Source: Deltaproteobacteria bacterium (GTDB taxonomy: Bacteria; UBA10199; DSSB01). From it: a stretch of DNA of 15,103 bases. Each line of letters opens with the position of its first letter. Position 1 is the first letter of the stretch. The notes beneath the pieces were generated by a model. The model saw nothing but the letters and a program-made list of their open reading frames with translations, ran no database searches and had not been told where the DNA came from. Position numbers and translations under genes: made by a program. Below are positions 4-15,103 of the stretch, one piece after another. The DNA is taken from the NCBI GenBank assembly GCA_021414045.1, contig JAIOPF010000330.1, positions 1 through 15,103 on the forward strand, written 5' to 3'.

Positions 4-17
4 ACTGACATGTCAGT
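4..17. promoter_or_regulatory. Perfect 14-bp palindrome upstream of the ether-lipid operon
   Basis: Bases 4-17 read ACTGACATGTCAGT, a perfect inverted repeat without spacer. It lies just upstream of a TTGACT hexamer at 24-29 that could be a -35 element, about 80 bp before the AGPS start. No convincing -10 hexamer is visible at the matching distance. Position and symmetry fit an operator for a dimeric repressor, for example a TetR-type regulator, but no regulator gene is in the window and no factor can be named. The window edge cuts the region, so more of the promoter may lie upstream. Confidence 0.4.
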
Positions 18-97: not shown

Positions 98-1909
98 ATG
101 CAAAACTCGCCGACGCGCCTTTTTCCACCGCCCCTTCCTCCCCAATCGGGAGACGAGGAAAGCCTCGACGTCTGGGGCTTTCGGGACACGAAATTCGAAA
201 TCTTGAACAACGGCAGCGTTCGACTGAGCGGATCCCGCTATTCGCTTTGCGGGCAAGAACTTCCCTCCCTGCTTCCCTGGGTCAGCGAAGTCATGAAGGT
301 CTCGGTTCGCGCCGACGACCAAAATCCGCCGGCCTATCCGACGGCGATTCCCGAGCCGGTTTCCCATCCGAATTTCATGGCCGAAGTGGTGAAAATTCTC
401 CAAGCCGACCAAATCAGCCAAGATCCGAAGCTGCGACTGCGTCATGGCCACGGTCACACCCAAGAAGAAATGTTCGCGATCAAATACGGCAAGATGGCAC
501 GCATCCCCGATCTGGTGGTCTATCCTAGCGAAGAAGAGCAAGTCTCTTCCCTAGTCGAAGCCGCGATTCGACATGACGTCTGCCTGATCCCTTTCGGTGG
601 CGGAACCTCGGTCACCGAAGCCCTGCGCTGCCCCGAGAACGAGGGACGCTTCATCGTCTCGGTGGACATGCGCCGCATGAACCGCATCCTCTGGATAGAC
701 CCGGTCAACCGCATGGCCTGCATCCAAGCCGGCGCCGTCGGACGCCACATCTTCGAGCAGCTGAAGCAATACGGTTTCACGCTCGGGCACGAACCCGACT
801 CGGTGGAATTCTCCACCCTCGGAGGCTGGATCGCGACGAACGCCAGCGGCATGAAGAAAAACCGCTACGGCAACATCGAGGACATCGTCCTCGACATGAA
901 CGTCGTCACCGCCGCCGGCAAGCTCGAGCGCTCCTCGGTGGCCCCGCGAGAATCCGCGGGCAGCGACCCGCGACTTTGGCTCTTCGGATCCGAGGGCAAC
1001 CTGGGCATCATCACCTCGGCGATCGTGAAGCTCTTCCCGCTGCCGGAAGTGCAGCGTTACGGATCGGTGATCTTCCCCACTTTCAAGGATGGGGTCGCCT
1101 TTCTCTACGATCTGACGCAAAACGGAGCCGTACCCGCCAGCATCCGCCTCGTCGACAACCTGCAGTTTCAGTTCGGATTGGCGCTCAAGTCCAAGTCGAC
1201 GGGGCTCAAGGCGCTGAAAAGCAAGATCGAGAAATTCTTCGTCATCAACCTGAAGGGCTTCGACCCGCAAAAAATGGTCGCCTGCACCATCGTCTTCGAA
1301 GGCAGCCGGGCCGAGGTCGCCACCCAGGAAAAGGCGGTTTACGGTTTGGCGAAAAAGCACAAGGGAATGAAAGCGGGCGCGGAGAACGGCATCCGCGGCT
1401 ACCAGCTGACCTTCGGCATCGCCTACATCCGAGACTTCGTCATGAAGCATTACTTTCTCGCGGAATCCTTCGAGACCTCGGTGCCCTGGAGTCAGGCCGA
1501 ATCCCTCTGCGAGAACGTCAAGGCCCGCCTCGCCGCGGAGTACGAAAAACGCGGCCTGCCGGGAAAGCCCTTCCTCACCTGCCGCGTCACCCAAGTTTAC
1601 GAGACCGGCGTCTGCGTCTATTTTTATTTCGGCTATTACTACAAGGGCGTGGAACACCCTTCCGAGCTCTACGCCGAGCTCGAAGTCATCGCGCGCGAGG
1701 AGATCCTGCGCAACGGCGGCTCGCTCTCGCACCATCATGGCATCGGCAAGCTGAGGCAGCGCTTCCTGCCCGAGATCAAGTCCCCCGCCATGCTCGAGTG
1801 GATAGGCCAGGCCAAAAGAGCCTTGGATCCCAGCAATACCTTCGGCAGCGGCAACCAGAGCATCGCCGAGACTTCCAAAACCATCAAAGCGGTGGGAGGT
1901 GAAAAATGA
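98..1909 (+). CDS. Alkyldihydroxyacetonephosphate synthase-like flavoenzyme (AGPS family)
   Basis: This is a 603-residue FAD enzyme of the AGPS branch of the vanillyl-alcohol-oxidase superfamily. The family replaces the acyl chain of acyl-DHAP with a fatty alcohol, making the ether bond of alkyl-DHAP. The N-terminus has the family WGF-DTKFE and LSGSRYSL segments. The FAD domain shows PDLVVYPSEEEQV and PFGGGTSV (about 165-172), then the highly characteristic LGHEPDSVEFSTLGGW (229-244) followed by ASGMKKNRYGNIED. The C-terminal half has CRVTQVYETG with Tyr501, the expected active-site tyrosine region, and the SLSHHHGIGKLR histidine cluster (His545-547). Length fits eukaryotic AGPS without its peroxisomal targeting peptide. 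The ATG at 98 is preferred because GAGGA at 86-90 precedes it by 7 nt; the open frame reaches a TTG at 29 that lacks such a site. The stop overlaps the next start (ATGA), so translation is probably coupled. A D-lactate or glycolate oxidase relative is possible but much less likely given these motifs. Confidence 0.9.
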   Translation: MQNSPTRLFPPPLPPQSGDEESLDVWGFRDTKFEILNNGSVRLSGSRYSLCGQELPSLLPWVSEVMKVSVRADDQNPPAYPTAIPEPVSHPNFMAEVVKILQADQISQDPKLRLRHGHGHTQEEMFAIKYGKMARIPDLVVYPSEEEQVSSLVEAAIRHDVCLIPFGGGTSVTEALRCPENEGRFIVSVDMRRMNRILWIDPVNRMACIQAGAVGRHIFEQLKQYGFTLGHEPDSVEFSTLGGWIATNASGMKKNRYGNIEDIVLDMNVVTAAGKLERSSVAPRESAGSDPRLWLFGSEGNLGIITSAIVKLFPLPEVQRYGSVIFPTFKDGVAFLYDLTQNGAVPASIRLVDNLQFQFGLALKSKSTGLKALKSKIEKFFVINLKGFDPQKMVACTIVFEGSRAEVATQEKAVYGLAKKHKGMKAGAENGIRGYQLTFGIAYIRDFVMKHYFLAESFETSVPWSQAESLCENVKARLAAEYEKRGLPGKPFLTCRVTQVYETGVCVYFYFGYYYKGVEHPSELYAELEVIAREEILRNGGSLSHHHGIGKLRQRFLPEIKSPAMLEWIGQAKRALDPSNTFGSGNQSIAETSKTIKAVGGEK

Positions 1910-4596
1910 GAACGGAAGGCCGTGGCAATCGAGTCTTGATCACCGGCGTCACCGGTTTCGTCGGCAAGGTCGTCCTGGAAGAAATCCTACGCCGCTCGGA
2001 AGAATTCGACCTCGACCGGGTTTACGTGCTGATCCGTCCTGGAAAGAAGGGACATTCCCCGCAAGAGCGCTTTCATCAGGAAGTCGCCACCTCGCCGTGT
2101 TTTTCCCTGCTCCCGGCCGGATGGGAGAGCCGAATCACCGTCGTCGCCGGGGAACTGAGCGAAACCCATTGCGGCTTGAGCGTCTCCGACCGCGAGGAGC
2201 TCGCTGGGCAACTCACGCATTTGATCAACTGCGCCGCTTCCGTCGAATTCGACCTGCCCCTGGCGGTAGCCGCCAAGGCCAACATCACGAGCAGCTTGAA
2301 CGTCCTCGAGCTCGCCAAGTCTTGCAAAACGCTGCAACGTTTCGTCAACGTGTCGACGGCCTACGTCACTCCTCACCGCGGCGACTCGGTGCCGGTGCCC
2401 GAAGCCCCCGTCCCGCTGCCACGTTCGGCGCGGGAAATCTACCAGACCATCCTGAGCGGACGCTTCGACACGAAAGCCTTGCTGAAAGAAACAGGACACC
2501 CCAATACCTACACCTACACCAAGTGCCTCTCCGAGCACCTCCTGCTCGAAAATCGCGGCAAGGTGTCGATGACCATCGTGAGACCCAGCATCGTTTCGGC
2601 CTGCTGGAAATACCCCTTTCCCGGCTGGATCGACAGCCGTGCCGCCTTCGCGGGCTTCGTCTCGCTGATCGGATCGGGCTACCTGCAAGCCGTGGTCGTG
2701 CGCGAGGCCACCTTGCTCGACATCGTGCCCTGCGACGTGGTCGCCGACCGCATCCTCCGCTGCGCCTTCGAACGCGTCGAGGCGGACCCGGAAACGCCGC
2801 AAATCCGGCACGCGGTGGCCGGGCCGACGCGCAGCTGCTCGGTACGCGAGAATAGCGATATCATCGAAGCCTTCTTCCGACGTTATCCCGTCGACCGCTA
2901 CCCGAACGTGAAATACCGCGGCCCCGACAACCTCGAGTTTCGCCTTCGCCATTGGCAATGGCACCAGGCCCCCAACAAGCTAAGGTCGGCCTTCTGCGGG
3001 CTTACCGGAAAGACCAAGCAGAAAAAGCAGGTCGAACGCCTGGCGGGAACCCTGCATTACCTGAACACCGGCTTCCCCTATTTCACGCATTGCACCTTCG
3101 ATTTCCAGGTCTCGATGCCGATCGACGACCCTGACTTCGAGAAAAAGGCCTACATCGAGACGGTCTGCAAGGGCGTGTATCGCCACCTGATGAAAAAATC
3201 CGAGAATGAAGTCACCTTCGCCGGACGAAAGCATCGTGGATTCCAAAAGGACCTGGCCTGGACGATCACCCGCCCGAAGGGCAATTGGGCCATCCGGACT
3301 TCCGCCTATCTGGCGCGCAAGGTCCTGCGACGCTGCGCCGACCAGATCACCTTCGACCGCGCCGCCTTCGAGAAAGCCCGCGCCGCGATCCCGCGCGACA
3401 CCCTATTGATCATCGTCCCGACGCACCGCAGTTATCTCGACTTCATCCTCTGCTCTTATTTGTTTTTCTCCCATCCGGAACTGGGCATCGCGATCCCGCA
3501 CATCGCGGCGGCGCAAGAGTTCGGAAAAATCCCGCTGCTCGGCAAACTCATCAAGCAGACCCAGGCCTTCTACGTGCAGCGCGGGCTCGGCAGGGAAAAC
3601 CCGGAGCTGACACGGCAAATCCACGACCTCGTCCACCGCCAAGAGTCGCTGGAATTCTTCATCGAGGGAACGCGCAGCCGTTCACGTCAGGCCCTGAAGC
3701 CCCGGCGCGGCATTTTAAAATGCCTCCAAGGCTCGGGCCAGAAATGCACGATTCTCCCGGTGTCGATCAGCTACGACCGGGTTCCAGAGGCCTCGACCTT
3801 CCGCCGCGAACTCAGCGGCGCGCCGAAGCCGAAGATGCGCCTGGGCGGCCTCCTCGCCTGGTTGGGCCGAGTCACGAGCGGCGAAATCCGCTTGGGACGC
3901 ATCCACATGGCCTGCGGCCAACCCCTCGCCATGGACCCGGACGCGGACCTGATGTCCCTGAGCCGGGAAGTGATGGCCGAGCTGCAAGGCGGCTTGACCG
4001 CGAGCAGCTACCACCTTCGCGCCTTCCTTAGGCAGCATCCCATTCCAGGGCTCGGGTTGGACTGGCTAAAGCAGGCTATCGAAGCCCGAGGTGGCCGCGT
4101 CATCGAGAGCCCGCTCAAGGACGAGGAAAAAAACGACGAGATCCTGGGGCCCACCTTCAACTATCAATGGAGCCATTGTTTCTTCGCCGAGGCCTTGTCG
4201 GCCTTTCCGGAGCACCCCGCCATCCAAAGTCACGTTCGCAGCAATCTTTATCTACCGCTTTCCGAGTCGAAGATGCCGGCCTCGCGGGAGGAAAGACTCC
4301 AATTCCTCCTGCAGGCCCTCTTCGAGCCGGTCTGCCGCGACTACTACGGGGTGGCCGACGTGCTGGGGCAGCGCAAGAACCCGCCCCGCTCGGCCGCCGA
4401 ATTTCTCCCGCATCTTCACGGGGCCCACTTGCCCAACATCGAAGCCTGCCTGGAAGACCTCGTCGCCCGCGAAATCTTGACGCCAGGAGACAAGGGTGAA
4501 GGTTATCGTTGGGGGCCCAAAGCCCAGGAACTGAACCGCTACCGCGAAGCCTGCCGCTGGCCCGAAACCGCGTCTCGCTTGGCCGCGGTCGGATAA
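1906..4596 (+). CDS. Fusion protein: fatty acyl-CoA reductase + GNPAT/PlsB-type acyltransferase
   Basis: This 896-residue protein has two enzyme halves. Residues 1 to about 430 are an alcohol-forming fatty acyl-CoA reductase: Rossmann TGVTGFVGK (13-21), INCAASVEFD, NVSTAYV (148-154), catalytic YTYTK (Tyr202, Lys206), then a FAR C-terminal (Sterile-type) domain ending near YLNTGFPYFTHCTFDF. Residues from about 480 are a glycerol-phosphate/DHAP acyltransferase: PTHRSYLDF with the HX4D pair His507/Asp512, AFYVQRG (554-560), FIEGTRSRS (585-593) and ILPVSISYDRVPE (616-628), resembling GNPAT as much as PlsB. A further C-terminal region of about 200 residues matches the GNPAT tail in position. The first half would supply fatty alcohol and the second acyl-DHAP, the two substrates of the AGPS encoded just upstream. 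The start lies in an ATGA overlap with that gene, with GGAGGT at 1895-1900 as ribosome site. DHAP rather than glycerol-3-phosphate as acceptor is inferred from context, not visible in sequence. Confidence 0.88.
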   Translation: MRTEGRGNRVLITGVTGFVGKVVLEEILRRSEEFDLDRVYVLIRPGKKGHSPQERFHQEVATSPCFSLLPAGWESRITVVAGELSETHCGLSVSDREELAGQLTHLINCAASVEFDLPLAVAAKANITSSLNVLELAKSCKTLQRFVNVSTAYVTPHRGDSVPVPEAPVPLPRSAREIYQTILSGRFDTKALLKETGHPNTYTYTKCLSEHLLLENRGKVSMTIVRPSIVSACWKYPFPGWIDSRAAFAGFVSLIGSGYLQAVVVREATLLDIVPCDVVADRILRCAFERVEADPETPQIRHAVAGPTRSCSVRENSDIIEAFFRRYPVDRYPNVKYRGPDNLEFRLRHWQWHQAPNKLRSAFCGLTGKTKQKKQVERLAGTLHYLNTGFPYFTHCTFDFQVSMPIDDPDFEKKAYIETVCKGVYRHLMKKSENEVTFAGRKHRGFQKDLAWTITRPKGNWAIRTSAYLARKVLRRCADQITFDRAAFEKARAAIPRDTLLIIVPTHRSYLDFILCSYLFFSHPELGIAIPHIAAAQEFGKIPLLGKLIKQTQAFYVQRGLGRENPELTRQIHDLVHRQESLEFFIEGTRSRSRQALKPRRGILKCLQGSGQKCTILPVSISYDRVPEASTFRRELSGAPKPKMRLGGLLAWLGRVTSGEIRLGRIHMACGQPLAMDPDADLMSLSREVMAELQGGLTASSYHLRAFLRQHPIPGLGLDWLKQAIEARGGRVIESPLKDEEKNDEILGPTFNYQWSHCFFAEALSAFPEHPAIQSHVRSNLYLPLSESKMPASREERLQFLLQALFEPVCRDYYGVADVLGQRKNPPRSAAEFLPHLHGAHLPNIEACLEDLVAREILTPGDKGEGYRWGPKAQELNRYREACRWPETASRLAAVG

Positions 4597-4605
4597 GGAG
4601 CCCGT

Positions 4606-5673
4606 ATGAAGAAGAAACCCGTCCTCATCACCGGAGCCACCGGCTTCCTCGGACGCCATCTCCTCCAAGCGCTCTGCCAGGATTCCGCGCTGCAACCGAT
4701 CGCGCTGGTCCGAAACAAGAAAAGCTGGAAATCGCAAAACTGGACCCATGGATTGAAAGGCGTCGAATTGCTCGAAGGCTCCATCACGGACGCCGCCGAC
4801 TGGGCCGATGACCCGCGCCTGGAAGGTTTGTCGGGCATCTACCATCTGGCCGCCGTGGTCCGTCACACCCGCAGGGATCCCGAAGACATGATCCACGCCA
4901 ACGTCGAAGGCTTGCTGCAAATCCTGCGCGTGGCCGGCGAGCGGAAGTGCCGCGTGGTTTTCATCTCCACCTCCGGAACCGTCGGCTGCTTCGACTCTCC
5001 CTCGGAGAGCGCGGATGAAAACGCCCCTTATCAAGAAAAGACCGTCGGAGCTTGGCCCTACTACGCCTCGAAGATCCGCGCGGAACGCGAGGGACGCGCC
5101 CTAGCCGAAAGCTTGGGCGTCGAGCTGGTCATCCTGCGCCCGCCCGTCCTGCTCGGTCCCGGCGACCATCGCATGCGCGCCACCAGCCACATCTCTCGGC
5201 TGCTGCGGGGCAAGCTGCCTTTCATCGTCAAGGGCGGCATGCATTTCGTCGATATCCGAGACGTCACCCAGGCGATGCTCCGCGCCATGAAAATCGCCAA
5301 ACCCCGCCCCGTCTATCACTTGAGCGGGACGGCCTATCGCCTCGAGGACTTCCTCGGAACCGTGGCCGAAATCGGAAGGGTATCGCCTCCCAAACTGCAA
5401 CTTCCCTCGTTGGTCGCGAAGCTGCTTTCGAAAACCTCCGCCATCCTCGATTCGGTGCTCCCGCCACGCGAGCATCCCATCCTGCCCGATCCCGTCGTCT
5501 TCGAGATGGCCTCGAAGCATTGGGGATTGCATTCCCTCTATGCGAAGAAGGATTTGGGATTCGTCTCGCGGGATCCGCGCGAGACCTTGACCGACACCAT
5601 CGTGTGGTTACGGGAAAATCAGCCGGAATTGAAGGCGAAGGCGGCCGGCGACTTGAATGCCGCGGAGCTTTAA
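4606..5673 (+). CDS. Extended short-chain dehydrogenase/reductase (NAD-dependent epimerase-like)
   Basis: This 355-residue extended SDR starts with the nucleotide-binding motif TGATGFLG (9-16), has HLAAVVRHTRRDPEDM followed by the NVEG helix, a FISTSGTVG active-site strand (119-127), and the catalytic YYASK (Tyr152, Lys156) followed by ILRPPVLLGPGD, as in dihydroflavonol-reductase and 3-beta-hydroxysteroid-dehydrogenase relatives. The substrate cannot be read from sequence. It follows the fusion gene by 9 nt, with TAAGGAG at 4594-4600 serving both as stop codon and ribosome site, so it belongs to the same operon. An ether-lipid pathway needs a reductase for the ketone of alkyl-DHAP, and this gene is the obvious local candidate; reduction of a fatty aldehyde or an unrelated substrate is also possible. 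It converges on the ABC ATPase gene with only 13 bp between stops and no clear terminator there. Confidence 0.75.
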   Translation: MKKKPVLITGATGFLGRHLLQALCQDSALQPIALVRNKKSWKSQNWTHGLKGVELLEGSITDAADWADDPRLEGLSGIYHLAAVVRHTRRDPEDMIHANVEGLLQILRVAGERKCRVVFISTSGTVGCFDSPSESADENAPYQEKTVGAWPYYASKIRAEREGRALAESLGVELVILRPPVLLGPGDHRMRATSHISRLLRGKLPFIVKGGMHFVDIRDVTQAMLRAMKIAKPRPVYHLSGTAYRLEDFLGTVAEIGRVSPPKLQLPSLVAKLLSKTSAILDSVLPPREHPILPDPVVFEMASKHWGLHSLYAKKDLGFVSRDPRETLTDTIVWLRENQPELKAKAAGDLNAAEL

Positions 5674-8133: not shown

Positions 8134-8961
8134 TCAATCCAATTTCTGGAAGGCCAAAATCATGTACCTCATCCAATTGAGCCGGCTGACCCACTCGGCG
8201 GCATAGGTCCCGAATTTGTTCCAGTCTTCCTTTCCGGTCAGGTCGCGCTGAATTTTGCGCAAATAAGGGTAAGTCGGAATCGTATGACGCGCGATGTCCT
8301 CCTCCCAAATCGAGACGAAACCGGAATCCGCCGCAAGGCGCCGGTAATCGGAGAGACTATGCGTCATCTTGCAGGAACCGAAGAGCGGATCGAGCATGCG
8401 ACGAGACGCCTTGGAAGCGCTAAAAGGACGGAGAAATCCTTTTGGGACGAAATCGCAGATGGCCAAAACTCCTCCCGGCTTCAGGACGCGTCGGGCCTCG
8501 GAAAAAAATTCCCCGCGGTCGGGAAAATGGAAAATGCATTCGACGGCCAATACCGCGTCGAACCCGACGTCTTCGAAGGGCATGCGGCAGGCGTCTCCCT
8601 CGACGAATTGCACGCGGTTGCAGGCCCGCGCCGTCACCTTGGAGCGTGCGCGGGTTATCTGGCGAGGGTCGATATTCAATCCGACGAGGTCCATGTTTTG
8701 GAAATTTTCGTTCAAGCTCGCGACGGTGCCGCCGAAACCGCAGCCGGCATCCAAGACCTTCATCCCATCCTTGAGCAGGGCCGCCCGCCAAACCCGCTGA
8801 GAAAGCGCTTCCGCGGCCCGTGCAAAATCCTCCGGACTTAAATCGGCGCGCTCGGGGCGCTCCCAATAGCCCCAATGGACATGGCGTCCGAAAGCGGCGT
8901 CGAGGGCGACATTGCCCTTGTCAAGACTCTCGAACAGGAGGTCGAAATACGGAAGTCGCAT
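8134..8961 (-). CDS. SAM-dependent class I methyltransferase
   Basis: This 275-residue methyltransferase has motif I VLDAGCGFGG (69-78), an acidic loop near GLNIDPRQI, GDACRMPF and DAVLAVECIFHFPDR, then the post-motif III segment FSEARRVLKPGGVLAICDF. The HWGYWE stretch near residue 29 and overall layout resemble the tocopherol, sterol and small-molecule C/N-methyltransferase group. The substrate cannot be assigned. The start at 8961 is chosen because its ATG shares one base with the TAA stop of the upstream gene (TAATG), a usual coupled arrangement; an extended frame to 9084 would only translate another gene out of frame. It is followed after 31 bp by the peroxiredoxin-like gene. A lipid or quinone substrate is possible but unsupported. 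Confidence 0.82.
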   Translation of the reverse strand: MRLPYFDLLFESLDKGNVALDAAFGRHVHWGYWERPERADLSPEDFARAAEALSQRVWRAALLKDGMKVLDAGCGFGGTVASLNENFQNMDLVGLNIDPRQITRARSKVTARACNRVQFVEGDACRMPFEDVGFDAVLAVECIFHFPDRGEFFSEARRVLKPGGVLAICDFVPKGFLRPFSASKASRRMLDPLFGSCKMTHSLSDYRRLAADSGFVSIWEEDIARHTIPTYPYLRKIQRDLTGKEDWNKFGTYAAEWVSRLNWMRYMILAFQKLD

Positions 8962-9377
8962 TATTGAACTTCCCCGGCGCGAATCCGCTTCACCACCTTG
9001 GTCTTGAGCTCCTTGCCATTGGGCTTGCGCAGGATCATCTTCCCGCCGTCGAAGCGGACATCGATGGGATCGCCGATGATCCAATCCCCGGGCTTGCCGT
9101 AAAACATCGGCGTGTATTCGCCGACGTAGACGAGATCGCCGGCCTGGACGCTGATGAAATAGTGTTTTTCCTCGGAGGTCGTCGGCGTGGTGACCGTCGT
9201 TCCGTCCTTTTGTTTGGTCGTCGTGTAGCTCGTCGTTTTATCTTTCTTCTCCTGGATGTCCAAGAGCTTGCCCTGCTGGTAGGTCGGCGGGGTCTTATCC
9301 TTCGCTACCGCGGGACGCGAGAAGGACAATCCGAACAGGGCCGCGAAGATCAATAAACTTGTCGTGATGCGACGCAT
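8961..9377 (-). CDS. Secreted protein of unknown function
   Basis: This 138-residue protein has a clear signal peptide: MRR, hydrophobic 7-20, cleavage after AVA at 23-25. The mature part has a Lys/Thr-rich low-complexity stretch (about 44-70, many Thr-Thr pairs) and a compact beta-rich C-terminal part with VQAGDLVYVGEY, GDWIIGDPIDVRF and RKPNGKELKTKVVKR. I recall similar C-terminal blocks in hypothetical exported proteins of Acidobacteria and related groups, without known function. The ribosome site AGGAGG (minus strand, 9387-9382) sits 4 nt before the start. It lies 28 bp after the Cys-rich gene and its stop overlaps the methyltransferase start by one base. Confidence 0.7.
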   Translation of the reverse strand: MRRITTSLLIFAALFGLSFSRPAVAKDKTPPTYQQGKLLDIQEKKDKTTSYTTTKQKDGTTVTTPTTSEEKHYFISVQAGDLVYVGEYTPMFYGKPGDWIIGDPIDVRFDGGKMILRKPNGKELKTKVVKRIRAGEVQ

Positions 9378-9795: not shown

Positions 9796-10077
9796 TCAGG
9801 CGACCTTTCTCGGCGTGATCTTAAAATCATATCCAAGCAATCGAAGGATACCGAGCAAGATATCGAAAGTGATCTTGGAAATCCCCTGTTCGGATTCAAT
9901 TTGAGCGACCCTAGCCTGGGATACTCGAGCTTTCTTTGCAAGCGCAGCCTGTGACAACCCTAATTTTTTCCGAGTGATTTTAATCAGATCGATCAGGCTT
10001 TGTTTTTCACGAATTTCATTGATGCTAACGCCGAGCTTTTTTGCCAATTTTTCGGTATCAATTTCTTTCCAAGCCAT
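9796..10077 (-). CDS. XRE-family antitoxin (HigA-like)
   Basis: This 93-residue protein has a helix-turn-helix of the Cro/CI (XRE) type: the stretch LIKITRKKLGLSQAALAKK, then ARVSQARVAQIESEQG as the recognition region, and a C-terminal helix ILLGILRLLGYDFKI (about residues 32-88). It sits 2 nt after the stop of a RelE/HigB-type toxin, in the toxin-first order typical of higBA. The site AAGGAGGT (minus strand, 10092-10085) gives strong translation. The antitoxin would neutralise the toxin and repress the shared promoter through the ATAAG/CTTAT palindromes at 10421-10456. It is intact although the toxin frame is broken, so it may remain as a free regulator. Confidence 0.85.
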   Translation of the reverse strand: MAWKEIDTEKLAKKLGVSINEIREKQSLIDLIKITRKKLGLSQAALAKKARVSQARVAQIESEQGISKITFDILLGILRLLGYDFKITPRKVA

Positions 10078-10555: not shown

Positions 10556-11746
10556 TCAAAGAAAAAAGTGCGTCAGAAAGATGCAGGAATAAGCTATCAA
10601 AATCCCTTTTGCCCAAAGCGGTTTTCTTTCTTTCAAGCAATGCCAAATCCACGCAATGCAAAAGCTAAAGGCCGTAAGGCCCAAAGTCACCGCAAGGCCT
10701 TGGGCAAGGCTTAATTGATGAGCGTAAAAAGAATTCAAACCCTTCAGGAAAGGCCGCCCATAAACAATCGCCATATGAAAAACATAGACCTGAAGGGACT
10801 CCTTCGAGAATATAGTTAAAAAACCAATTCTAGATTTCATTTTTCGGAGCAGGGGTTCCAGTAGGTATAGCAAGGAAAACAGGCATGTCACCTTACTTAA
10901 TCTCAGAAAGGAATTTCCAGGATTGCAAAACCACCAACTCTCCTGCCAGCCTGGATATCGAAAACGCAAGTCATGGATATAAAAAATAAGGTAAGGAGCC
11001 AACGTTGAAACAAGTAACAAGGCTCCCATCCCATAAATTTTGTTTTTAAGTTGTGCGAAAAAACCTGTGATCGCCGCACCCATAAAGAAATGGCCCACCC
11101 AAGGGAAAAATGGGAATGCGGTATCGGGGGGTCTTCCAAAGATCGATTTAATAAAAATGGTTTCGCGAGAAAGGTCCATTCCCCATACCCAGGGAGCTGC
11201 CGCATAAACAGACAATCCGATTCCAAGAAAAACCCACTTTAATATGCGGGATGATTTCAATATTTGAATCAACAACAACGAAAGAAGAATGGAAAAACCA
11301 ATCACCTGCAGTACATTAAAAGCCAGTAACCTATTCCAGGCAAGAGGGGTGTCTTTCAACTGATCCCATGAAGAAGTTGAAATGTTAAACCAATATGCTG
11401 TCAGCAAAATAAAAGCTGTTCTTCTCAAATGGTTCAGTAATTCAGGACTTAATTTGCGATAAAATTCTCCCTTCCTTTCCAATGAAAACCATACAGCGGA
11501 ACCTGCGCAAAAAATGAAAGCCACTGCCACATAGCCTGTCGTGGGTAAGAAAATCTGATAATAAGGGTTCTCGCTGGCTTGGGTGTTCAACAAAATACCC
11601 AGCACGTGGGTAGGAATCATCCAAAGGACGGCAATTCCTCTCAGAATATCAAGGAAGAGATATCGATGATTAGATTCTTTGAGCGAAACTGCAAAAGCCA
11701 TTGTTAAAATGATAAAATGCAACGCGGGAAGCCAGCTCATTCCCAT
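10556..11746 (-). CDS. Multi-pass membrane acyltransferase (HGSNAT/DUF1624-like)
   Basis: This membrane protein of up to 396 residues has about ten hydrophobic segments. Near its start it has RYLFLDILRGIAVLWMI followed by THV, the D-x-L-R-G and His pattern (Asp33, Arg36, His47) of transmembrane acyltransferases related to heparan-alpha-glucosaminide N-acetyltransferase. FFPWVGHFFMGAAI in the middle and LQVYVFHMAIVYG near the end also fit that group. Such proteins move acyl groups from the cytosol onto sugars or other acceptors across the inner membrane; the acceptor here is unknown. Codon use is clearly AT-richer than in the flanking operons, suggesting acquisition. The start is uncertain: no ribosome site precedes the ATG at 11746, and Met16 (ATG at 11701) fits the usual N-terminal length better, since the bases upstream of it are GC-richer and may come from a broken neighbour. 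The gene stands alone between the toxin region and a transposase remnant. Confidence 0.7.
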   Translation of the reverse strand: MGMSWLPALHFIILTMAFAVSLKESNHRYLFLDILRGIAVLWMIPTHVLGILLNTQASENPYYQIFLPTTGYVAVAFIFCAGSAVWFSLERKGEFYRKLSPELLNHLRRTAFILLTAYWFNISTSSWDQLKDTPLAWNRLLAFNVLQVIGFSILLSLLLIQILKSSRILKWVFLGIGLSVYAAAPWVWGMDLSRETIFIKSIFGRPPDTAFPFFPWVGHFFMGAAITGFFAQLKNKIYGMGALLLVSTLAPYLIFYIHDLRFRYPGWQESWWFCNPGNSFLRLSKVTCLFSLLYLLEPLLRKMKSRIGFLTIFSKESLQVYVFHMAIVYGRPFLKGLNSFYAHQLSLAQGLAVTLGLTAFSFCIAWIWHCLKERKPLWAKGILIAYSCIFLTHFFL

Positions 11747-12258: not shown

Positions 12259-13716
12259 CTACCCCGCCAACTCACTCTCCCCCATCAAAAACCGATCAAT
12301 CCCCCGCGCACACTTCCGCCCCTCCGCAATCGCCCAGACGATGAGGGATTGCCCGCGGCGTTGGTCGCCGGCGGCGAAGACGGCGGGCACGTTGGTCATG
12401 TAGTTGTCGTCGGTGACAATATTGGTGCGCTGGTCGAGTTGAACGCCCAGCTGCTCGATCATGCCGGGCTTCTCCGAGCCGGTGAAACCCATCGCGAGCA
12501 GGAGCAAGTCGCACTCGATCTCGAATTCGCTGCCCGGAACTTCCTTCATCTGAGGGGGGCCGCCATTGGGATTCGGCGTCCATTCGAGGCGGACGGCGTG
12601 GAGCTTTTTCAGCACTCCGCCCTCCCCGCTCAGGCTCTTGGTCATGATGCAATAATCGCGAACATCCTGGCCGCCATAGACCTCGAGGGCCTCTTGGTGG
12701 GCGGGCGAGGTGCGGAAAATCGCCGGCCATTGCGGCCAAGGGTTGTTCGGAGCGCGGTCCATCGGCGGGCGCGACAAGAGTTCGAATTGATGGATCGATT
12801 TCGCTCCCTGACGCACGGAAGTGCCAAGGCAGTCGGCTCCGGTGTCGCCGCCACCCAAGATCACGACCCGCTTTCCCTTCGCGGTGACTTGCTCGGCGAC
12901 CGAGTCGCCGGCGTTCTTCTTGTTTTCTTGGGCAAGAAATTCCACCGCGAGGTAGGTACCCTTCAATTCTCGTCCCGGCACCGGCAAGTCGCGGGCCTGG
13001 CTCGCGCCGCCGCAGAGGGAGACGGCGTCGAAATTCTTTTTCAAATCCTCGACGGGGACGTTCACTCCGATATTGGCATTGGTCTTAAACACCACGCCCT
13101 CGGCCTTCATCTGCTCGATGCGAAAATCGATGCGGCGCTTTTCCATCTTGAAATCAGGAATCCCGTAGCGAAGCAAGCCGCCGATGCGGTCGCTGCGCTC
13201 GAAGACGGTCACTTCGTGGCCGGCGCGGCGCAACTGCTGGGCGCAGGCGAGGCCCGCCGGACCCGAACCCACCACCGCGACCTTCTTGCCGCTGAGCTTC
13301 TTCGGCGGTTGGGGCTGAACCCAACCTTCTTTGAAGGCCCGCTCGATGATATTGAGCTCGATGTACTTGATGGTGACGGCTTTGTCGTTGATGCCGAGGA
13401 CGCAGGAGCCTTCGCAGGGCGCGGGACAAAGCGTGCCGGTGAACTCCGGAAAATTATTGGTCGCGTGCAGGCGCTCGATAGCTTCCTGCCAGCGGTTCTT
13501 GTAGACGAGGTCGTTCCAGTCGGGAATAAGGTTTCCGAGAGGGCAACCTTGGTGGCAAAAAGGAATGCCGCAATCCATGCAGCGGGCACCTTGGACGCGA
13601 AGGCGTTCAACGGGAAATTCTGTGTAGATTTCCTTGTAGTCCTGGACGCGATCCGCGACGGGCCGCTCGGGATAGTGGTCCCGGTGGTATTCCATGAAAC
13701 CCGTGATCTTACCCAT
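12259..13716 (-). CDS. gltD: Glutamate synthase (NADPH) small subunit
   Basis: This 485-residue beta subunit of glutamate synthase takes electrons from NAD(P)H to FAD and passes them through 4Fe-4S clusters to GltB, for making glutamate from glutamine and 2-oxoglutarate. The N-terminal ferredoxin-like domain has [16 protein letters not shown] (Cys46, 49, 54, 58) and [10 protein letters not shown] (Cys97, 101, 105). The FAD motif is [14 protein letters not shown] (about 146-159), the NAD(P)H motif [13 protein letters not shown] (about 283-295), and the C-terminal FAD contact is the segment around [17 protein letters not shown]. Length and all motifs are normal. The start overlaps the last 8 nt of gltB, so translation is coupled. 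Two related non-GltD families (dihydropyrimidine dehydrogenase subunit, sulfide dehydrogenase subunit) are excluded by the adjacent gltB. Confidence 0.97.
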
Positions 13717-15103
13717 ACAGCGCGGCCTCCAGCGTGATGTTCAACTCTTCCATTTTCTTCTGCGCCTCGGTGAGCACGCGCTTGTAGTCCTTCGGCATGA
13801 CCTTCACGAAGGAGTTGAGGGCCTTGTCGAAGTCCTTGAGGATCGCCTTGGCCACGGTGCTGCCCGTGTGTTCGACGTGATTGCCCAGGAGCTCTTCGAG
13901 CAGGGCGATGTCGCCGTCCTCGTTGATGGTCTCCAGGTCGACCATGTCGGGATTGCAATTGGCTTTGAATTCGTTCTTCGGGTCGTAGATGAAGGCCGTG
14001 CCTCCGCTCATTCCCGCCGCGAAGTTTCGACCGGTCTTGCCCAAGACCACGACGTGACCGCCGGTCATGTATTCGCAGCCGTGGTCTCCCACGCCCTCGA
14101 CGACGGCCTTGGCGCCGCTATTGCGGACGGCGAAGCGTTCGCCGGCGACACCGCGAAAATAGGCCTCGCCGCTGGTGGCGCCGTAGAGCACGACGTTGCC
14201 GATCAGGATATTGTCTTCCGGGACGAAGGTGCTCTGCTTCGACGGGAAGACCATGATCTTGCCGCCCGAGAGCCCCTTGCCGACGTAATCATTGGCGTCG
14301 CCTTCGAGGGTCAATGTCATGCCGTTCGGCACGAAGGCGCCAAAGCTCTGTCCTGCGGAACCTTTGAACTTCAGCGTAATCGTATCGTCAGGAAGGCCTT
14401 TCAGGCCGTACTGCCGCGAGACCTCGCTGCCGATGATGGTCCCGGTGGTGCGATTGCGGTTGGTGATGGTCTGTTCGAGCACCACCTTCTCGCCGGTGGC
14501 GATGGCTTCCTGCAATTTGGGAAGCATCTGGTAATCCAAGACGCTTTCCAGCCCGTGATCTTGATTGCGGATCTGCCGGGTCGCCGTCTCGGGACCCACG
14601 TCGGGACGATGGAAGATGGCCGAAAAATCCAAGCCCTTCGCCTTCCAGTGCGCGACCGCCTGGTTGAAATCGAGGCGATCCGATCGTCCGATCATCTCTT
14701 CGACCTTGCGGAAGCCGAGTTCCGCCATGATCTCTCTCAACTCTTCCGCGATGAAGAAAAAGAAATTGACCGCGTGCTCGGGCTGACCCGCGAACTTCTT
14801 GCGCAGCTCGGGATCTTGCGTCGCGACGCCAACGGGGCAGGTATTCAGATGACAGACGCGCATCATGATGCAGCCCAAGGCCACCAGCGGCGCGGTTGCG
14901 AAACCGAACTCTTCGCCGCCGAGCAGGGCGCCGATCGCGACGTCGCGGCCGGTCTTCATCTGGCCGTCGACTTCCACGACGATGCGGTCACGCAGGCCGT
15001 TCATCACCAAAACTTGTTGGGTCTCGGCCAATCCGAGCTCGAAGTGAATGCCCGGGTTCTTGTTGCTGGTCTGGGTCGAAGCGCCGGTGCCTCCGTCGTG
15101 ACC
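13709..15103 (-). CDS. gltB: Glutamate synthase large subunit, C-terminal part (cut by window edge)
   Basis: The last 464 residues of GltB are visible; the whole protein is usually about 1,500. The visible part opens with GHDGGTGAS of the FMN domain, continues [12 protein letters not shown] and [17 protein letters not shown], and has the 3Fe-4S cysteines in [21 protein letters not shown] (Cys78, 84, 89 of the fragment). The C-terminal Gly-rich beta-helix domain (repeats such as [31 protein letters not shown] and [12 protein letters not shown]) is complete and ends in LEAALYG. The glutaminase domain and most of the synthase domain lie beyond base 15103. No frameshift is seen. The frame continues to the window edge, so the gene is truncated only by the window. 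Confidence 0.97.

Follow-up and report, generated by a model that had tools for sequence, protein, structure and literature searches.

A putative bacterial ether-lipid operon encoding AGPS, a FAR–acyltransferase fusion and an SDR, preceded by a palindrome that also stands before Ger-like genes

Results

Gene content of the locus

The window, as we call the whole stretch of 15,103 nucleotides that was analysed, is an entire contig of a 2.6-Mb genome that is 84% complete (G000). Its first letters are TAAACTGACATGTCAGTCTGATTTTGACTTG, which contain a perfect palindrome, so that the contig ends at this site, and the palindrome is followed by three genes on the plus strand. The features are:

4..17, no strand: perfect 14-bp palindrome ACTGACATGTCAGT, a candidate TetR operator, 80 bp ahead of the AGPS start codon
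98..1909, plus strand: AGPS-type alkyl-DHAP synthase, 603 aa, matching guinea-pig AGPS 4bby with 564 bits
1895-1900, plus strand: GGAGGT ahead of the start of the fusion gene, read from the sequence
1906..1909, plus strand: ATGA, in which the AGPS stop overlaps the start of the fusion gene by 4 nt, read from the sequence
1906..4596, plus strand: FAR–acyltransferase fusion (FARAT), 896 aa, a single frame with domain and fold matches
1921..3198, plus strand: FAR half of FARAT, residues 6-431, with a full-length fatty acyl-CoA reductase fold
3202..4566, plus strand: GPAT/GNPAT-type acyltransferase half of FARAT, residues 433-887, from a fold match
4606..5673, plus strand: extended SDR, 355 aa, matching the Epimerase family at 1.2e-32, a proposed alkyl-DHAP (or acyl-DHAP) reductase
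8137-8964, minus strand: class I methyltransferase, with the fatty-acid O-methyltransferase Mtf2 as second-best NCBIfam match, far below the cut-off
10556-11746, minus strand: HGSNAT_cat/acyltransferase-3 membrane protein, within a stretch of low G+C
12259-15103, minus strand: glutamate synthase genes at the right contig end, for the small subunit and (in part) the large one

The gene after the SDR encodes an ABC ATPase on the opposite strand, and between positions 10001 and 12000 the G+C content is 0.42-0.43, down from about 0.6. A plasmid origin found no support, as none of the plasmid records spans 80% of the query. Elsewhere in the same genome, contig G000:C277 (L045, 1-3777) carries ElbD-like genes for an AMP-binding protein and a carrier-acyltransferase protein, as well as an HAD protein that continues into a short-chain dehydrogenase where the contig stops; a FAR was not seen on this 3.8-kb contig beside the ElbD-like pair of ACS and ACP-acyltransferase. 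Contig G000:C96 (L046) encodes a second, stand-alone FAR-like protein (575 aa) adjoining another NAD_binding_4 protein, together with a 421-aa protein and two AMP-binding proteins, and this is possibly another lipid or aldehyde/alcohol cluster. The CarF family (PF10520), which represents the plasmalogen step, had no match in the 84%-complete genome, a result that carries no weight, since the control was matchless too.

AGPS and the FAR–acyltransferase fusion

The AGPS match to 4bby covers residues 22-586 (E 3.2e-168), and Dictyostelium AGPS 2uuu is matched with 312 bits. Six residues of 4bby that we take from the AGPS literature to be catalytic (R419, R515, Y578 and H615-H617) are all retained, as R350, R445, Y508 and H545-H547. 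The preliminary description of this DNA had claimed that a FAR and a GNPAT/PlsB-type acyltransferase are joined in one uninterrupted polypeptide, and that its gene overlaps an AGPS-like gene by 4 nt. Both points held, as the 896-aa frame contains both folds at full length, and the overlapping AGPS gene has its active-site residues intact.

Within the FAR half, Pfam identifies the Rossmann domain NAD_binding_4 (2.5e-61), and the motifs GxxGxxG and YxxxK are both present. In an alignment that took in 54 of the 120 listed homologues, Y202 and K206 are invariant, as are H507 and D512 of the HX4D motif and the EGTRSR-type motif at E587-R592 in the acyltransferase half. The structural alignment of the FAR half with 7eoz extends to residue 431, with thioester reductase domains from NRPS, PKS and CAR as the lower-ranked matches. 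The acyltransferase half aligns in fold with GPAT1 as far as residue 887, the fold matches being mostly to the FAR half and few of them bearing on this second half. The Pfam FAR C-terminal domain Sterile (FAR_C) was not listed for the window FARAT even at E<=10, and it scores 0.03 and 0.02 in two three-domain relatives (P0041 and P0076, respectively).

The fusion recurs well beyond this contig. All 120 homologues listed, which are the best 120 of 1332, have both domains, and their source names include some Myxococcota, Deltaproteobacteria, Bacteroidetes and Marinimicrobia; as FARAT matches, some of them partial, were also obtained in 8 of 46 genomes of the class, an assembly or frame accident was rejected. 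Distances in the FAR half and in the acyltransferase half correlate across the 54 aligned proteins (rho 0.52, p 0.001), as would be expected if the fusion was a single old event.

Distribution of the operon in the class

AGPS is present in all eight FARAT genomes, with at least 65% identity, and it lies directly before FARAT on the same contig in seven of them, with G002 having AGPS and FARAT on two contig ends. An SDR, counted with a threshold of 1e-50 and thus seen in 7/46 class genomes, follows FARAT in seven of the eight; in the remaining one, G034, the contig breaks off within FARAT. The order AGPS-FARAT-SDR is unchanged wherever the contigs show it, and the genes flanking the three are not common to genomes outside the window's family. 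At 1e-60, AGPS was found in 10/46 class genomes; two of these have distant AGPS-like genes (G042:C380:2895-4307 and G044:C99:11798-13258; 32-34% identical) and no FARAT. As the two-half polypeptide is translationally coupled to a true AGPS, the best reading from sequence is a bacterial equivalent of the route that runs through FAR1, GNPAT and AGPS in peroxisomes, and the animal-like layout put forward in the preliminary description is in this respect upheld.

The acyltransferase half

The assignment of the acyltransferase half needs more discussion. Its best NCBIfam match is PlsB (1e-32), but with 113 bits versus an equivalog cut-off of 610, and its solved relatives are PlsB and GPAT1. The motif HRSYxDF is found in 27/27 FARATs and 7/7 mammalian GNPATs, whereas HxSHxDY occurs in its place in both PDB chains (PlsB and GPAT1) and in 20/20 class PlsBs that match the motif pattern, these being 20 of 22 PlsB loci, with L017 and L019 left out because they do not match it. 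Pfam GPAT_C is strong in GNPAT (4.2e-73 in P0321) and in PlsB, in contrast to 0.057, below the cut-off, in the window FARAT. The window's genome has a separate PlsB gene with GPAT_C (L003, 1.8e-55), and such a gene is present in nearly all class relatives, which suggests a dedicated role for the acyltransferase half of FARAT.

A tree of acyltransferase cores was calculated from 27 of the 120 FARATs, the 20 class PlsBs, 7 of 120 GNPAT matches (the mammalian ones), and the PDB chains of PlsB and GPAT1. All 27 FARATs fall on one branch (100/100) that is separate from the 20 class PlsBs, and the grouping with housekeeping PlsB that the preliminary description had considered was thus not observed; in view of this position and the bit score, a housekeeping PlsB identity was rejected. 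In the best unrooted tree, a 98/89 branch splits GNPAT and GPAT1 from FARAT and all PlsBs. Two constrained trees were not rejected by the AU test, one that groups FARAT with GNPAT alone (p 0.363) and one that groups it with both GNPAT and GPAT1 (p 0.592, with a likelihood 2.49 higher). Of the earlier GNPAT/PlsB-type assignment, the position outside the class PlsBs and the motif shared with GNPAT therefore stand, whereas a sisterhood with GNPAT is not settled by the tree. A GNPAT function of this half is likely, as judged from the sequence.

The acyltransferase half could also be a glycerol-3-phosphate acyltransferase of the PlsB/GPAT type, in which case the fusion would couple alcohol formation to phospholipid or neutral lipid synthesis and acyl-DHAP would come from elsewhere. 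This agrees with the best NCBIfam match, with the solved relatives, and with the placement of FARAT and the PlsBs on the same side of a supported branch of the unrooted tree, but the distance from the PlsB cut-off, the separate PlsB, the exchanged motif, the 4-nt overlap that couples the gene to AGPS and the recurrence of the operon in 8/8 class FARAT genomes, two of them seen in part, render it quite improbable.

The downstream SDR

The SDR gene starts nine bases past the FARAT end and is preceded by GGAG at 4597-4600. Its nearest solved relative is the putative oxidoreductase 3wj7, followed by dihydroflavonol 4-reductase, ketoreductase and cinnamoyl-CoA reductase, and its scores are below the cut-offs of the best-matching curated NCBIfam models (HpnA, 160.6 bits with a cut-off of 367.65). 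FAR, acyltransferase and SDR occur in one chain in P0041 (1113 aa) and P0076 (1170 aa), a further hint that the SDR is part of the pathway. These two and L007 8001-11465 are three-domain single-frame fusions of 1113-1170 aa that lack the FARAT residues after about 762. We propose that the SDR acts as an alkyl-DHAP (or acyl-DHAP) reductase, a role taken purely from gene context.

A different division of labor is conceivable, in which the FAR half ends at the fatty aldehyde, the SDR completes the reduction to the alcohol, and another enzyme reduces alkyl-DHAP. The thioester reductase domains among the structural matches of the FAR half would suit this, as would the cinnamoyl-CoA reductases among the SDR relatives, and for the related ElbD an aldehyde is the sole product reported, with no fatty alcohol detected (PMC9131029). 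We regard the aldehyde route as unlikely and prefer the assignment of alcohol formation to the FAR half and of alkyl-DHAP reduction to the SDR.

The palindrome upstream of AGPS

The palindrome ACTGACATGTCAGT also precedes AGPS in G001, which belongs to the same genus as the window's genome, and in G002 and G004; in all three, a divergently transcribed TetR gene lies on the other side of the site. When the 46 class genomes were scanned, 13 of them had an exact copy of the palindrome, a single one in each. The chance expectation for the whole set is about 0.4 sites (assuming equal bases), and the reversed-pattern control gave 0. All 13 exact sites are just upstream of an ether-lipid gene, which is AGPS in 4 cases and a Ger/PlsA-like ester reductase in 9, the Ger-linked sites being mostly less than 200 bases from the gene start, as judged from alignments. 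Two BcrAD_BadFG (PF01869) stretches and DUF2229 are present in 3/3 scanned Ger-like loci (L055, L058 and L060), and the other 6 palindrome-linked Ger-like genes were assigned by 70-80% identity to one of these. Two PF01869 domains have been tied to Ger, a glycerol ester reductase that makes alkyl ethers, and the same source describes Ger and PlsA as not surely separable by sequence (PMC13274423). The palindrome-linked Ger-like proteins fall into two groups that are about 24% alike and come from several families, and both groups have the site. Second genes follow the Ger-like genes at L055 (3350-4948, 533 aa) and L060 (4228-5490, 421 aa); their products, which have no Pfam or NCBIfam match, can be aligned to the last third of L058 (residues about 970-1407), a single-chain version.

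Permitting one mismatch added 6 sites, at a stringency at which the reversed control was positive in 8 genomes (none at zero mismatches). The sites in G003 and G033 precede Ger-like genes, and those in G023, G012, G027 and G025, in or beside unrelated ORFs, were taken as chance. No palindrome was found upstream of AGPS in G016, G019 and G034, so that this control would be confined to the window's family. Among the 22 genomes with Ger-like matches, the site is at Ger in 11, at AGPS in 2 (G001 and G004), and at neither in 9; of these nine, only G034 possesses the TetR, with a Ger gene that begins at the end of a contig. G001 also holds a Ger-like pair (L065) without the palindrome.

The associated TetR regulator

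TetR homologues were found at 1e-20 in 16/46 class genomes. Twelve genomes have both TetR and the exact site, four only the TetR, one only the site, and 29 neither, an association with a Fisher p of 5.4e-7 that ignores kinship. With all six one-mismatch sites included, p is 4.2e-6, and with only the two picked post hoc it is 7.1e-9. The single genome with only the site is that of the window (84% complete), in which no TetR of the palindrome-linked family was found at 1e-20; as the contig ends at the palindrome, the regulator is out of view in the window. The sequence ARGTFYL in the DNA-binding region is identical in 12/12 aligned TetRs, 3 from beside AGPS and 9 from Ger-like contigs, and it is close to the general TetR pattern. 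For two TetRs, the best NCBIfam match was FadR, a fatty-acid regulator, with 68 and 70 bits and a cut-off of 200. In Enterococcus faecalis and other facultative anaerobes, pls has been described as immediately preceded by a TetR/AcrR gene, possibly oxygen-sensing (PMC9702350), and a TetR beside a Pls-type gene is by this record not new. A link of AGPS with a TetR was not found in the open-licence literature searched.

It could be argued that the palindrome is merely the site of a local regulator that lies near both kinds of genes by chance, or was inherited with the neighborhood, and that there is no common regulon. Binding of the TetR to the palindrome is a prediction, the four AGPS sites all belong to a single family and could go back to one event, the co-occurrence count ignores kinship, and ARGTFYL is near the general TetR pattern. 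However, 13/13 exact sites precede AGPS or Ger-like genes, far above the chance expectation and the reversed control, both of the dissimilar Ger groups have the site, and the flanking genes are otherwise unlike. We give this explanation only a small chance and favor a common regulon.

Discussion

From the observed gene order, intact motifs, folds and operator distribution, we consider it probable that AGPS-FARAT-SDR is a bacterial ether-lipid operon that is controlled, in the window's family, by a divergently encoded FadR-like TetR acting at ACTGACATGTCAGT. The catalytic steps and the DHAP substrate, as we infer them, would be as follows. The N-terminal half of FARAT would reduce acyl-CoA (or acyl-ACP) to fatty alcohol, and the C-terminal half would acylate dihydroxyacetone phosphate, so that FARAT would supply both AGPS substrates. 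AGPS would then exchange the acyl chain for the fatty alcohol, giving alkyl-DHAP, whose ketone the SDR may reduce to yield alkyl-glycerol-3-phosphate. The TetR would bind ACTGACATGTCAGT and control this operon in the window's family, and in relatives a regulator of this TetR family would act through that site on a Ger/PlsA-like ester-to-ether reductase.

The window operon most likely leads to alkyl-glycerol-3-phosphate along the animal route. In this family it takes the place that Ger has in relatives, with site and TetR family unchanged but another chemistry, and the simplest reading of the sequence data is a single ether-lipid regulon in which one of two chemically unrelated pathways took over from the other as the target. 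With somewhat less confidence than for the operon itself, we favor the view that a single TetR and its operator act as a general ether-lipid switch in this uncultured class, and that the switch passed from the Ger/PlsA-type reductase to AGPS-FARAT-SDR in the window's family, which would be a non-homologous pathway exchange under a kept regulator. AGPS consumes no net electrons, Ger belongs to the radical dehydratase type, and the Ger/PlsA type is ATP-driven and expected to be oxygen-sensitive. The exchange of Ger for AGPS could therefore have followed oxygen exposure.

If the switch exists, the palindrome marks both the AGPS operon and the Ger-like enzymes as ether-lipid makers and gives an independent, regulatory argument for their common purpose. 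It would also be a sequence handle for finding ether-lipid genes, and it makes testable the idea that bacteria switch between oxygen-sensitive and oxygen-independent routes to the same ether bond. The SDR fusions point to the SDR for alkyl-DHAP reduction, a step that had been left open.

Comparison with known systems

The fusion and the three-gene layout are already known, and it is the wiring of AGPS to the palindrome that was not found in the literature searched. AGPS homologues as such have been counted in many phyla of Black Sea MAGs (PMC11868695). The novelty implied by the preliminary description does not hold, as a Myxococcus xanthus operon (PMC9131029) and the FARAT of Dictyostelium (PMC7375469) precede the window; the claim that the layout differs from that of ElbD does hold. 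In myxobacterial ElbD, too, a single ether-lipid protein combines a FAR-like domain with an acyltransferase (PMC9131029), but acyl-CoA synthetase (ACS) and carrier domains are added to it, and its acyltransferase is AGPAT-like. An ElbD identity of the window FARAT was rejected, because NAD_binding_4, Acyltransferase and an overlapping Epimerase match are its only domains, with no ACS or carrier domain. Animal FAR1, GNPAT and AGPS have the same three activities that we propose for the window, AGPS being strongly alike and GNPAT having HRSYxDF; FAR1 and GNPAT, however, are separate proteins, and GPAT_C is strong in GNPAT and marginal in the window FARAT.

The joining of FAR and DHAPAT as FARAT has been described for protists (PMC13256971). 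Dictyostelium FARAT (gene fatA) has the FAR N-terminal to the acyltransferase in one chain, as in the window, and starts ether-lipid synthesis with AGPS (PMC7375469; PMC13256971). It resides in peroxisomes, and the knockout is reported to keep 13% of the ether storage lipid (PMC7375469). In contrast to the window protein, to which it is likened by description, it has 1279 aa and a C-terminal SKL, and AGPS and the reductase are separate genes. The Ger/PlsA ester-to-ether reductases also make ether bonds and carry the palindrome of the window operon in 9 class genomes, but the proteins (BcrAD_BadFG and DUF2229) and the chemistry are unrelated to those of the window enzymes.

The closest counterpart in layout is the M. 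xanthus operon of MXAN_1676 (AGPS), MXAN_1675 (N-terminally FAR1-like and C-terminally GNPAT-like) and MXAN_1674 (NAD-dependent epimerase/dehydratase), which adjoins the elb operon according to a 2006 study cited in the review (PMC9131029). MXAN_1676 is described there as about 42% identical to human AGPS, and its disruption as causing only a minor loss of ether lipids. The order of AGPS, FAR–acyltransferase fusion and SDR is the same as in the window, a likeness drawn from the published description, in which the fusion and the operon are named and the chemistry is putative (PMC9131029). The window differs in its host lineage and in the Ger-type palindrome before its operon, and it adds clean, compact versions of FARAT and AGPS for biochemistry.
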